From Dyadobacter beijingensis DSM 21582 (GTDB lineage: Bacteria; Bacteroidota; Bacteroidia; Cytophagales; Spirosomataceae): a stretch of 64,000 nt of DNA. The stretch lies in contig NZ_KB907787.1 of the NCBI RefSeq assembly GCF_000382205.1, positions 1,155,176 to 1,219,175 on the forward strand. Direction: 5' to 3'. The position numbers and the translations under genes are program-made. Each line of letters starts with the position of its first letter. The stretch's first letter is position 1. Positions 7,503 to 11,587 of the stretch are shown here, in pieces. Below the pieces are notes generated by a model that worked only from the letters and a program-made list of their open reading frames with translations, was not told the origin of the DNA and did no database searches.

Positions 7503-8198
7503 GTGAGCCAAGTCCCACCCAACCAGAACAGGATCAAAACATTTATAGGATGCTTGCTTGCAGCATCCTTTTTTTGGTTAATGAACGTCCTCAATAAGGA
7601 CAATTATTCTCTCAAACTGAATTACCCGCTGTCGATCGAATACGATAATGCGGCCTACGTGCCCATGCAGCCGCTCCCGAAGCGGATTTCGGTGAACGTG
7701 ACGGGCGACGGCTGGACATTACTCCAAAAATCCTGGCTGAATTTCAATGCTAACCCGGTGATCTACCGGGTACAAAACCCGAACGTGTCCAGTTTCATCA
7801 ACTCCACCACACTCACCGACCAGATCACGGACATGTTCCCGAACCTGCACGTGAACTATGTGGTAGCCGACACATTCGAGCTGAACTTCGAACCGAAAAT
7901 CCGCAAGATCATCCCGATCCGCGTCGATAGCACAGGTATCGATATTCGTGAAGGGTATGTGATTTCGAGCTTTATCAATGTGTCCCCGTCGCTGATATCG
8001 GTAGATGGCCCCGTTTCTCAGATCAAATCTTACCCGGATACGATCAGGGTACGCGTGCAAACGCCGAAAATCCAGAACAACTACGACGAAAGCCTGCCCA
8101 TTCCGCTGCCGGTTTCCCCACTGGTGGAAGTGAGCCACCGGGATGTTTACGTGAGCTTCGAGGTAGCGCAGTACCTTGCGGCGCCTCCGCAGGAATAA
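7503..8198 (+). CDS. YbbR-domain envelope protein
   Basis: Membrane-anchored protein (231 aa) with YbbR-like beta domains. The start is a GTG at 7503 (SQVPPNQNRIKTFIGC), followed by a single N-terminal membrane helix (about residues 14-30, FIGCLLAASFFWLMNVL) and an extracytoplasmic part. The repeats include YPLSIEYDNAAYVPMQPLP, KRISVNVTGDGWTLLQ and the second-domain strands FINVSPSLISVDGPVSQI. In Firmicutes YbbR (CdaR) regulates the diadenylate cyclase CdaA; no cdaA is visible next to this gene, so that role should not be carried over. It ends 22 bases before the coaE start. Confidence 0.82.
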   Translation: MSQVPPNQNRIKTFIGCLLAASFFWLMNVLNKDNYSLKLNYPLSIEYDNAAYVPMQPLPKRISVNVTGDGWTLLQKSWLNFNANPVIYRVQNPNVSSFINSTTLTDQITDMFPNLHVNYVVADTFELNFEPKIRKIIPIRVDSTGIDIREGYVISSFINVSPSLISVDGPVSQIKSYPDTIRVRVQTPKIQNNYDESLPIPLPVSPLVEVSHRDVYVSFEVAQYLAAPPQE

Positions 8199-8220
8199 CT
8201 TATCGCCAACCCTGCATTCC

Positions 8221-8829
8221 ATGAAACTTCCCCTCCTGATAGGCGTTACCGGCGGTATTGGTTCTGGTAAAAGCATGGTTTGCCGGCTCTTCGAATGCCT
8301 GGACGTGCCGGTGTACTATGCCGATAGCCGGGCCAAATGGCTCACGAACCACGACCCCGGGATCAGGGAAAAAGTGACCGCGTTACTGGGGCCGGAAGCT
8401 TATGCCGAAGGTTTTTATAATACCAAATACGTCGCTTCACGGGTTTTCGACAACGAGCCATTGCTGAAAGAACTGAATGCGATCATTCACCCGGTGGTGA
8501 TGCGTGACACAAAATCGTGGGTTGCGCAAAATGAGGGTATTCCTTATGTGCTGAAAGAAGCCGCCATTATGGGGAAAGCGGGTGAGGCAAATGCCGTTGA
8601 CTACGTGGTGGTGGTGGAAGCACCGGTGGATCTGCGCATTCAAAGGATCCTGCAACGCGACAACCGCACGGAACAAGAAATCCGGGCCATTATCGAACGG
8701 CAGGTTTCGGATGAGCACCGGCGCGAAATAGGCGATTATTTTGTGCAAAACGACGATGACTCCGAGTTGATACCGCAAGTGTTGCATTTGCACGATACTT
8801 TCCGGAACGCAGGTTCTTCCAGAAATTAA
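8221..8829 (+). CDS. coaE: Dephospho-CoA kinase
   Basis: Catalyses the last step of coenzyme A synthesis, phosphorylating the 3-prime hydroxyl of dephospho-CoA. The P-loop GGIGSGKS lies at residues 11-18 of the 202-residue protein that starts at 8221 (MKLPLLIGVTGG). Further family motifs are VYYADSRAKWL, LNAIIHPVV and RIQRILQRDNRTEQEIRAII. The frame is open upstream to 8176, but that would overlap the ybbR-like gene and add 15 unconserved residues. Its stop overlaps that of dnaX on the other strand by four bases, a tail-to-tail arrangement with no room for a terminator. Confidence 0.95.
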   Translation: MKLPLLIGVTGGIGSGKSMVCRLFECLDVPVYYADSRAKWLTNHDPGIREKVTALLGPEAYAEGFYNTKYVASRVFDNEPLLKELNAIIHPVVMRDTKSWVAQNEGIPYVLKEAAIMGKAGEANAVDYVVVVEAPVDLRIQRILQRDNRTEQEIRAIIERQVSDEHRREIGDYFVQNDDDSELIPQVLHLHDTFRNAGSSRN

Positions 8830-10712
8830 AAATCGACATCCAGCCCCAATGCTTGTTTCAATTCGAGTAAATAGGGGTTTTTTTCTGCCAAAAAGTTGAA
8901 TTTCTCGGCAGGCGTGTAAGGCAGCCTGTTTACTTCCTGAGGGGCCACACGGGGGTTGATATCCAATTTCGGTGCATCTAGCCGTGCTTTCAGGAAGCCC
9001 AGTAATTCATACCGCACATTCGCCACAGCGTCGAGCTGGTGGTCGTTATCCAACGCGATTTCAATGGTGGTGCCGCTCAGCTGAAATTCACGGTTCAGGG
9101 TAATTTGCTCCGTGGTGGAATTGCCGGCTTGCAGGCGCTTTTGCGAAAACTCGTACCATAGCCGTTGCAGGTTGGCCAAATTCAGCTCCTCTTTTTTCGC
9201 TCCGTTTGACACAGTGCCATAGTCTACTTTCGCGGGCTGGCTGGTCTCTTCTTTCGCTGCCTGCGAAGGTGGCGTGAGCGATTGCGTGAGGGAAACGGTG
9301 TTTTTCAGGCGAGAAGTTGCAGCTTGCGCGGGATTGGCCGGCGCATTGGCGGCATGCGTATGTGCATTATGTGTAGGCGCGGCGTGTTGCGGTGCTGTTT
9401 GCTGCACATGTGCCTGCGCAAAAGCGGCTGGCTGAGCTGCCGTAGCATGTGTGTTATTTGCCGGCGAGGTTGTGTTGCCGTTAGTGTACTGCCCATTGTT
9501 GGCCGGGCCGCCTGGTTGCGGAGCGTTCGCGGATGCGCTTAATGGTTGTCCGGGTTGGGGCTCAACTTTTTTTTTTGCCGTTTCATCAACGGCTGCAAGG
9601 GTGTGAAGTTGAAGAACCTGGGGCAAACTGGCGAGTTTCATGAGACAGAGCTCTACATGCAACCGCTGGTTTTTCGCCGATTTGTAGTTGATATCGCATT
9701 GCCCGGTAATGCTCAATGCCGAGAGCAGGAAACTCAGATCCGCCATGAGCGACTGTTCGAGGTACTTCCGCTCGGCCGACTCGGAAACTTGAAGCAAGGT
9801 AACCGTGGCCGGGTCTTTACACACAAGCAGGTTCCGGAAATGTTCCAACAGGCCTACTATGAACAAATGGCCGTCAAATCCTTTTCTTAATATCTCATCG
9901 AAAAGTACCAGCGAGCGGGCAATGCTGCCGGCCGTTAGCGCGTCGGTGATTTTGAAATAGTAATCGTAATCGAGAATATGCAGGTTTTCCAGTACCGCCG
10001 CATAGGTGAGGTGGTTATCAGTGGAAAAGGTCACATTCAAATCGAACATCGACAATGCGTCACGCAAACCGCCGTCGGCTTTCTGGCCGATCAGTTCGAG
10101 GGCTTCATGATCTGCGTTAATGCCTTCTTTTTTGGCAATATCCAAAAGATGATGCGCAATGTCTTTCGACTGAATGCGGTTGAAGTCGAAAATCTGGCAG
10201 CGCGACAGGATTGTTGGAAGGATCTTATGCTTCTCCGTCGTGGCGAGGATGAAAATCGCGTACGAAGGCGGCTCTTCCAATGTCTTCAAAAATGCATTGA
10301 AGGCGGCCTGCGAGAGCATATGCACCTCGTCGATGATGTAGATCTTGTACTTACCGGTTTGGGGCGGGTACCGCACTTGGTCGATCAGGTTACGGATATC
10401 TTCCACGGAGTTGTTGGAAGCCGCATCGAGCTCGTGGATGTTGAAAGAAGCGTTGTTCTGGAAGCTTACGCATGATTCGCATTCGCCGCAGGCCTCCACG
10501 TCGTCGCCCAGGTTCTGGCAGTTGATCGTCTTGGCCAGGATACGCGCGCAAGTCGTTTTTCCCACTCCGCGCGGGCCGCAGAAAAGAAAAGCTTGCGCGA
10601 GGTGATTGGTGCGAATGGCATTCTTTAACGTGGTAGTAATGTGTGATTGACCCACCACCGAATCAAAGGTGACGGGACGATACTTCCTGGCCGAAACAAC
10701 GAAATGATCCAT
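8826..10712 (-). CDS. dnaX: DNA polymerase III subunits gamma and tau
   Basis: Clamp-loader ATPase. Starting at 10712 (MDHFVVSARKYRPVTFDSV) it is 628 residues, close to E. coli tau (643). It has Walker A GPRGVGKTTCARIL, a four-Cys zinc module (CQNLGDDVEACGECESC), Walker B YIIDEVHML and sensor 1 ILATTEKHKI. After domain III comes a Pro/Ala/His/Gln-rich linker, then the tau-specific C-terminal region. At the start of that linker (codons 380-382) ten consecutive A residues encode Lys-Lys-Lys, and a -1 shift there ends in UGA after one more codon. This would give a 383-residue gamma form. The frame is open upstream to 10745, but that extension is not conserved-looking. Stop codons overlap with coaE. 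Confidence 0.95.
   Translation of the reverse strand: MDHFVVSARKYRPVTFDSVVGQSHITTTLKNAIRTNHLAQAFLFCGPRGVGKTTCARILAKTINCQNLGDDVEACGECESCVSFQNNASFNIHELDAASNNSVEDIRNLIDQVRYPPQTGKYKIYIIDEVHMLSQAAFNAFLKTLEEPPSYAIFILATTEKHKILPTILSRCQIFDFNRIQSKDIAHHLLDIAKKEGINADHEALELIGQKADGGLRDALSMFDLNVTFSTDNHLTYAAVLENLHILDYDYYFKITDALTAGSIARSLVLFDEILRKGFDGHLFIVGLLEHFRNLLVCKDPATVTLLQVSESAERKYLEQSLMADLSFLLSALSITGQCDINYKSAKNQRLHVELCLMKLASLPQVLQLHTLAAVDETAKKKVEPQPGQPLSASANAPQPGGPANNGQYTNGNTTSPANNTHATAAQPAAFAQAHVQQTAPQHAAPTHNAHTHAANAPANPAQAATSRLKNTVSLTQSLTPPSQAAKEETSQPAKVDYGTVSNGAKKEELNLANLQRLWYEFSQKRLQAGNSTTEQITLNREFQLSGTTIEIALDNDHQLDAVANVRYELLGFLKARLDAPKLDINPRVAPQEVNRLPYTPAEKFNFLAEKNPYLLELKQALGLDVDF
9562..9576 (-). 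promoter_or_regulatory. A10 slippage/frameshift site in dnaX with immediate stops in both other frames
   Basis: On the coding strand GCA AAA AAA AAA GTT GAG contains ten A residues (9576-9567). A -1 shift reads AGT TGA, stopping at 9564-9562. The other frame runs TTG AGC CCC AAC and reaches TAA nine codons on. Any one-base slip by ribosome or RNA polymerase therefore makes a protein of about 383-391 residues ending just after domain III. E. coli dnaX uses ribosomal -1 frameshifting and Thermus thermophilus dnaX uses transcriptional slippage at A9 to make gamma. That the same happens here is inferred from this sequence arrangement. Confidence 0.75.
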
Positions 10713-10750
10713 GGTGCAAGATACTTCCGTGCACTGGATTTTCAAAGCCG

Positions 10751-11587
10751 CTACTTCGTTACGAGCGGGTACACGCGGACGTAATCGACCTCCATTTTTT
10801 GCGGGAAAATGCTGTCGTCCACGCCCTTCTGCCCGCCCCAGTTACCACCGACGGCGATATTTAAAATTAAATGAAATGGTTTGTCGAACGGCCATTCGGG
10901 CCATTGGTAGGCCGCTTCTTTTTTGAATGTAAAATAGGCGTTTCCATCGACGAGAATCGTCACGGCATCGGGCGTCCATTCACATGTATACACGTGAAAA
11001 TCCTCGGAAAGCCCCTGCACGACCACATTGCTACCCTTGTTGGTTTTAATCGCATGGTTGAATGCTTTCGTGTGAATATTGCCATGCACCCGGTCCTGGT
11101 CGAACCCTACGTGCTCCATGATATCGATCTCGCCGTTGTCCGGCCAGCCTTTGTTGCCATAGTCGTTCCCGCTGGCCAGCATCCAGATGGCCGGCCATGT
11201 CCCGCGCCCTTTCGGCAACTTCGCCCGGATCTCGAATTTCCCGTACAGGAAATCCCCCTTACCTTTCGACACCAGCCGCGCCGAACTGTATTGCTGCTTC
11301 CCCGACGGCTCCTTGATGGCCGTGATCACGAGGTTGCCATCCTCTACCCTGGCATTCCCGATCTTATCGGTATAGTTTTCCAGCTCATTATTTCCCCAAC
11401 CATGATCGCCGAGGTTATAGCTCCATTTGGCCGGGTCGGGCTCGCCGGGTGTAGTAAATTCGTCCTGCCAGGATGGGGTAGAGGCGAATTCGTAGGTAGG
11501 CTGGGTTGGCAGCTTGTCGGGAGACGGCTGGGCGCAGCCTGATAACGCCAAAAGAACGGCTATTTCGGGTAGGGTTGGAAGCAGCAT
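10751..11587 (-). CDS. GH16 family beta-glucanase (laminarinase-like) lipoprotein
   Basis: Secreted endo-acting glycoside hydrolase of family 16, which cleaves beta-1,3 or mixed-linkage glucans and related galactans. Starting at 11587, MLLPTLPEIAVLLALSGC is a lipoprotein signal with Cys18, so the enzyme is probably anchored at the cell surface or periplasm. The catalytic motif ExDxxE is GEIDIMEHV (E153 nucleophile, D155, E158 acid/base). The family strands WSYNLGDHGWGNNELENYT, KLPKGRGTWPAIWML and LNIAVGGNWGG are all present. The 278-residue length is standard for a single GH16 domain. The start lies four bases after the stop of the small upstream gene, so translation is probably coupled. Beta-1,3-glucan is the best guess for substrate. 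Confidence 0.9.
   Translation of the reverse strand: MLLPTLPEIAVLLALSGCAQPSPDKLPTQPTYEFASTPSWQDEFTTPGEPDPAKWSYNLGDHGWGNNELENYTDKIGNARVEDGNLVITAIKEPSGKQQYSSARLVSKGKGDFLYGKFEIRAKLPKGRGTWPAIWMLASGNDYGNKGWPDNGEIDIMEHVGFDQDRVHGNIHTKAFNHAIKTNKGSNVVVQGLSEDFHVYTCEWTPDAVTILVDGNAYFTFKKEAAYQWPEWPFDKPFHLILNIAVGGNWGGQKGVDDSIFPQKMEVDYVRVYPLVTK

Follow-up and report, generated by a model that had tools for sequence, protein, structure and literature searches.

The dnaX gene of Dyadobacter beijingensis (Spirosomataceae, Cytophagales in the NCBI taxonomy) carries ten consecutive A residues in its coding strand, and the question raised by this locus is whether the gene yields, besides the full-length tau subunit of DNA polymerase III, a shorter gamma subunit by programmed slippage on the run, and whether RNA polymerase or the ribosome would be the machine that slips. 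A sequence-only reading of the window (the whole stretch of DNA analysed, 64,000 nucleotides) had proposed slippage of this kind. The comparisons reported here lead us to regard the run, judging from sequence and with a probability of about 0.75, as a programmed slippage site chiefly of RNA polymerase, helped by a hairpin in the nascent RNA.

Anatomy of the dnaX site

The features of the site are as follows, with positions numbered along the window:

8826..10712, minus strand: dnaX, DNA polymerase III tau, 628 aa, 69.1 kDa (ATG 10712-10710, stop TAA 8828-8826)
9577..9593, minus strand: hairpin GCCGUU-GAUGA-AACGGC, 6 bp with a loop of 5 and zero spacer to the A10 run
9567..9576, minus strand, in the coding strand: candidate A10 slippage run, third base of codon 379 plus codons 380-382
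9562..9564, minus strand: UGA closing the predicted gamma after one added A; this stop lies 2 nt past the run in the 47 genus rows with A10
9539..9541, minus strand: UAA closing the predicted gamma after one lost A, a +1-frame stop 25 nt past the run
8826..9566, minus strand: tau-only part absent from gamma, comprising a variable linker and a conserved C-terminal domain

The product matches the NCBIfam gamma/tau equivalog NF011531 at 921 bits (cut-off 685) over residues 1-627. Its Pfam domain III match covers residues 239-365 and its alignment to E. coli gamma chains of known structure reaches residue 360, which, with the run starting from codon 379, bears out the placing of the site at the end of domain III by the sequence-only reading. 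The ten A's claimed there are likewise confirmed, and the span then noted, 9562-9576, also takes in GTTGA with the UGA (9564-9562). One added A leads to this UGA after a single serine codon, for a predicted product of 383 aa and 42,781 Da, and one lost A leads to the UAA, for a predicted product of 390 aa and 43,568 Da. The gene is tau-default and lacks the two-ORF arrangement of dnaX, in which a stop in frame closely follows the run and tau lies in the shifted frame.

Across the window the dnaX A10 is the only A run of nine or more on either strand; as shuffles of the window average 2.73 nine-A matches, its mere presence is unremarkable given the composition of the window, and what exceeds chance is its conservation among relatives. 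The 7.4-Mb genome holds A10 at seven places, dnaX being one of them, and two of the other six lie within stop-to-stop frames 150 codons long or more, in one case at the very end of the frame. One A10 elsewhere in the same genome (L006; contig 5, 278298-278307, minus strand) stands within a 203-codon stop-to-stop frame (SSKKKIRRLSNPYFDWRIAAGV) and may be another slippage site. An Rfam search over 8800-10800 returned one match only, with an E value of 0.25, far under the gathering score and off the A10 site, and a scan for promoters and terminators found nothing at the run; a terminator at A10 on the plus strand was rejected, as the T run precedes the hairpin there. At the far end of the gene, the dnaX stop codon overlaps by two bases, tail to tail (8826-8829), with the stop codon of a plus-strand frame (8176-8829) that presumably resembles coaE.

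Conservation of bases and of the hairpin

The sequence-only reading had suggested looking for synonymous breaks of the run in close relatives, and none was found among 48 Dyadobacter genomes, of which 47 carry A10 and one (G032, row L053) carries A8. In G032 a UGA closes the normal frame and the tau part is found in a different one, so that gamma is the default product; this may be a real flip or an assembly or homopolymer error. Codons were counted in the 45 of 48 rows of equal length, excluding L053, L054 and L055. Among 375 degenerate codon columns of these aligned genes, 12 show a single codon among the rows with the commonest residue, and 11 of the 12 are contiguous (GCC GTT GAT GAA ACG GCA AAA AAA AAA GTT GAG), covering the hairpin, the A10 run and GTT GAG. 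Lysine codons elsewhere in the same stretch of dnaX are AAA in 71%. Of the excluded rows, L053 has ACC for the first GCC in addition to its A8, L055 has GAA for GAT, and L054 has two synonymous hairpin changes that compensate each other. In these alignments the constraint on the site acts on bases and not on amino acids.

The first 17 bases of the frozen stretch form a 6-bp hairpin whose 3' end meets the A10 run. The 40 nt from 9561 to 9600 have a folding energy of -9.5 kcal/mol (z -2.61), which 4 of 200 shuffles reached, and the abutting hairpin itself, 9577-9593, folds at -8.0 kcal/mol, which none of 40 shuffles equalled. Covariation was assessed in 52 rows (48 Dyadobacter, four from genera g16, g24 and g25), 21 of them distinct. 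Over these rows 99.2% of the cells are paired, and only in L053 is a pair, the outer one, broken. Both partners have changed at two of the six pairs, UA becoming CG at each of the two and also AU at one of them. This makes three compensatory cells where shuffles give 0.1 (none of 500 as high); three pairs are invariant. The hairpin motif, with one loop base left free and followed by eight A's, occurs in 35 of 200 genomes of the family and 4 of 36 genera, once in each genome.

A different hairpin occupies the same position in family f26, taken to be Flavobacteriaceae (42 rows, 35 distinct; the alignment holds 42 of 46 rows, leaving out three in another phase and L239, which has a longer loop). 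Its cells with double changes number 14, against 6.2 +/- 2.0 in shuffles (0 of 500 as high), and its covariation is 0.275, against 0.206 when shuffled (0 of 500) and at most 0.161 when slid. Against this hairpin, only 75.7% of cells are paired, many rows breaking it, and two further counts are ordinary by comparison with 500 shuffles: pairs that changed on both sides (equalled in 225) and pair types (equalled in 44).

Distribution of the run and of the reading frames

The wider comparison comprises 253 rows, after five duplicate loci had been dropped. Its family sample consists of 60 regions from 27 genera, hand-chosen among the matches listed (192 matching genomes), with genus g13, which is large in the draw, represented by one row only; its order sample consists of 40 regions hand-chosen from 143 matching genomes; and its wider-phylum sample consists of 30 loci plus 80 kept loci minus the five duplicates, no two of these wider rows sharing an identical 200-nt stretch at the site. 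The run is A10 in 182 rows, A9 in 21, A11 in 10, A8 in two, A12 in one and A13 in one, and 36 rows have none of eight or more. A run of A9 or longer at the dnaX junction or linker is therefore present in 215 of 253 rows, a count that is one too low, as L183, scored as run-less, has A10 just beyond the scanned stretch; outside the linker the same rows hold nine runs of A9 or more in 529,131 nt. The family rows have A10 in 37 of 60 and a run of at least eight in 45 of 60, the order rows A10 in 33 of 40 and any run in 36 of 40, and the wider-phylum rows A10 in 65 of 105 and any run in 88 of 105. A close-up of f26, made of 17 counted rows and the 29 best new loci from a 60-genome draw with the run located by tblastn, shows at least nine A's in 46 of 46 rows and A10 in 40.

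Twenty regions from the distant families f33, f35, f46 and f50 (L266-L285), chosen mainly for short open frames, placed outside all counts and not anchored by the Dyadobacter protein, have A9 in six and A10 in 14, near the junction; read in frame, the end of DnaX and the protein around the junction differ in these regions. A number of Bacteroidales rows have no A run. In L219, L228 and L263 (Bacteroidales, Bacteroidetes) there is no run and the normal frame closes at UAG, followed by ATTGCNAGG, with an apparent tau linker continuing in frame past the UAG; stop readthrough or a restart in place of slippage is possible there. An 18-base pattern drawn from this lead had 0 matches in 395 genomes of the class.

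Relatives keep the A run in codon phases 0, 1 and 2, so that the peptide is not the thing conserved. In 196 of 217 rows a stop closes each of the two non-tau frames no more than 30 nt on; among 73,063 control positions the share is 21.6%. The tau frame was taken as the longest open one, frames running off the locus counting as open. By this measure, among 247 rows with a run of at least eight, the normal frame is the long frame in 190 and a shifted frame is the long one in 57. In the latter the normal frame stops soon past the run, and the long frame is reached by one added A in 52 rows and by one lost A in five (the run-off rule decides six of the 52 and one of the five); in the tau-default rows the stop reached by one added A is the nearer in 172 of 190. 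As the rows are related, the p value computed for this bias in direction overstates its significance. The 57 gamma-default rows have A10 in 44, A9 in eight, A11 in three, A8 in one and A13 in one; an isolated row with A9 or A8 might reflect an assembly error, which is hardly likely for the rows with A10.

On a 92-row tree of genus, family and order, the default product has changed at least 15 times, at least 13 without L096 (frame broken elsewhere) and L053 (A8), and six times among the 65 genus and family rows, numbers that are rough because the tree came from a quick search and has many weak branches and long rows. Both default states occur inside genera g19, g21 and g36. Split-frame relatives must shift frame at the run to make tau, and this is the strongest indirect sign that the site works; the proposal of programmed slippage for gamma, made by the sequence-only reading, is supported by the comparison. 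That reading had noticed neither the abutting hairpin nor the flips of frame among relatives nor the spread through the phylum.

Signals for RNA polymerase and for the ribosome

In the 215 rows with A9 or more, three signals were each compared with same-base shuffles (60 shuffles, 30 for the 3' hairpin test). A 5' hairpin ending at most 3 nt from the run and ranking at or below 5% of shuffles is found in 46 of 47 rows of the genus, 17 of 45 of the family, 8 of 35 of the order and 33 of 88 of the wider phylum. Outside Dyadobacter such a hairpin is thus significant in 58 of 168 rows and absent as significant in 110, and the hairpin is therefore not a general need. Downstream hairpins, 4-9 nt 3' of the run, reach the 5% level in 3 of 47 genus rows and in two family, two order and nine wider rows (13 of 168 together), and Shine-Dalgarno-like matches of at least 5 nt upstream are seen in 0 of 47 genus rows and in three family, one order and one wider (5 of 168 together); both are near chance. 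The frame reached by one added A is identical to the -1 ribosomal frame, so the bias in direction cannot separate the two mechanisms. A second lysine tRNA has been suggested as the reason why Thermus uses RNA polymerase slippage (as set out in PMC5009743). A pattern search for lysine tRNAs found only tRNA-Lys(UUU), with no sign of a second species, and the Thermus-type argument is thus unsupported here.

Within the family, 15 of 60 rows lack a run of eight or more, and 14 of the 15 carry instead a GGAGGG-like element followed about 9 nt later by GGGAAAG (12 rows) or AAAAAAG (two rows); L084 has neither. The rows bearing GGAGGG are L070, L072, L073, L075, L076, L079-L083, L090 and L094, from genera g36, g2 and g29, and L071 and L112, from g6 and g13. 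In g36 a UAG stands in frame directly past GGGAAAG in seven of eight rows. Six of these seven extend far enough to show the tau domain, which is in the -1 frame, so that tau would be the frameshift product; in the three rows of g2 and the one of g29 it is gamma that a -1 shift would produce. To judge by these motifs, sister genera look like they reach the same two products by devices of transcriptional and of ribosomal appearance. Shine-Dalgarno sequences generally go unrecognised by the ribosomes of Bacteroidia, yet the prfB frameshift, held to depend on Shine-Dalgarno pairing, is kept in 523 of 726 Bacteroidia (both as given in PMC8710568). Two order rows, L154 and L136, have short runs (A6G and A7) followed by 60 nt folding at -24.7 and -22.1 kcal/mol, with a -1-frame stop 2 nt on, and ribosomal frameshifting is likely in them.

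A model of slippage and its rivals

The model proposes that, once A10 has just been copied, the RNA:DNA hybrid, given as 9-10 bp in PMC5009743, would consist of rA:dT throughout and would be free to shift by one, and that the hairpin directly behind the run, at the RNA exit channel, would promote the shift. Tau would then come from transcripts with A10 or A13. An extra A, the favoured outcome of slippage, would bring in UGA one codon on and yield a gamma of 383 aa, and the loss of an A would yield the form of 390 aa. For Dyadobacter we infer slippage that is mostly transcriptional and stimulated by the hairpin, with gamma used in the clamp loader.

The most probable rival is an additive one, in which RNA polymerase and ribosomes both slip on A10. 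It draws on the fact that A10 is a homopolymer of hybrid length that also holds ribosomal slippery heptamers, and on the one family in which both kinds of signal are seen; the signal beside the run is, however, of the RNA polymerase kind, and we consider this possibility unlikely, if well worth keeping in view. Less probable still is that gamma arises as in E. coli, by -1 ribosomal frameshifting on the run (A_AAA_AAA), with RNA polymerase in a minor part. The near stop is indeed a -1-frame stop, only one tRNA-Lys species was found, and related genera of the family carry GGAGGG and, 9 nt later, GGGAAAG or AAAAAAG. However, where such ribosomal-type signals occur in the family, the row has either A6G or no A run at all, and Dyadobacter itself has no Shine-Dalgarno match and 3' hairpins only near chance. 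What it does have is a hairpin set 5' of the run without a spacer, which a ribosome on the run would be expected to cover and melt. Seven bases are enough for a -1 ribosomal shift, and the ten A's that are kept exceed what such a shift needs. We infer that the balance leans to RNA polymerase, with A10 able to make ribosomes slip too.

Variation in the length of the homopolymer in DNA might switch tau on and off between cells, as the A8 and split frame of G032, and A8 or A9 in nine of the 57 gamma-default rows, could suggest; yet tau is central to replication and a tau-off state would be costly, the run is exactly A10 in 47 of 48 genomes of the genus, and the A8 row may be an assembly error, all of which makes phase variation very improbable. 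The least probable reading is that selection on the protein alone maintains the run, as a linker motif rich in lysine, and that slippage there is mere noise. KKK does stand in the 47 A10 rows of the genus, but it is written with AAG codons in none of the 48 rows, and the synonymous positions at the site are frozen in 45; relatives hold the run in other phases and with other residues, and on this reading tau would be impossible in the split-frame relatives.

Slippage by RNA polymerase may extend well beyond the genus. With slightly better than even confidence, Bacteroidota would owe their gamma/tau pair to slippage of RNA polymerase, programmed by a hairpin of the nascent RNA that abuts an A10 of hybrid length. 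The pair would persist through changes of device (A10 with or without the hairpin, or Shine-Dalgarno with GGGAAAG or A6G) and through repeated flips of the default product. If this is true, hairpin-stimulated transcriptional slippage extends from one insertion sequence to a core replication gene, phylum-wide, a terminator-like stimulator of a mobile element serves such a gene, and the gamma:tau ratio of the replisome is tied to the behaviour of RNA polymerase. Sister genera with transcriptional- and ribosomal-looking devices, and tau- and gamma-default states within one genus, form a natural swap set, by which the debated need for gamma becomes testable through comparative genetics.

Comparison with known systems

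Slippage on an A run in dnaX is already known, and it is the cellular version abutted by a hairpin that appears to be new: the open-access literature, mostly at the level of titles and abstracts and with most subscription papers outside its scope, yielded no dnaX slippage with an abutting hairpin and no Bacteroidota dnaX slippage as such. In Blochmannia, a homopolymer frameshift in dnaX, possibly corrected by slippage, lies downstream of the gamma site (as reported in PMC3017870). In E. coli, -1 ribosomal frameshifting in dnaX gives the same pair of products from a single gene, at a similar point in the protein. The slippery sequence there is AAA_AAA_G, flanked by a Shine-Dalgarno-like element upstream and a hairpin downstream (as summarised in PMC3711429), whereas Dyadobacter has neither stimulator and a longer run, and E. 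coli-like signals are found in other genera of its family.

Closer to the present case is the transcriptional slippage of Thermus thermophilus dnaX (Larsen et al., 2000, as described in PMC1088944 and PMC5009743), which, in those descriptions, shares with it a single tau frame, an A run in the sense strand and close stops in both other frames. The Dyadobacter gene shows what marks the Thermus type in sequence, namely an A run of at least nine at the end of domain III, near stops and conservation beyond amino-acid need. However, the run is A9 there and A10 here, and the Dyadobacter run is one that adjoins a covarying hairpin. In dnaX genes of the two-ORF type, ten A's occur in 9 of 17, and programmed transcriptional realignment has been proposed (Antonov et al., 2013, PMC3711429, in the passages on dnaX). 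These genes resemble ours in their ten A's, and tau requires a frame change in them as it does in 57 of our 247 relatives; unlike them, the focal gene is tau-default, and no abutting hairpin figures in those passages of PMC3711429. The main text of that paper names Chlorobium and Chloroherpeton and none of five Bacteroidota genera looked for, and its nine ten-A genes may include Bacteroidota.

For the hairpin, the nearest precedent is the IS630 element of Roseiflexus, in which a stem-loop stimulates slippage (Penno et al., 2015, as described in PMC5009743). According to that description a 6-bp stem adjoins the run on its 5' side and lies at the RNA exit channel. The geometry here is the same; the Roseiflexus case, however, concerns a mobile element, U5C5 and the loss of one base, whereas the present one concerns a replication gene, A10 and reading frames that point to a gain.
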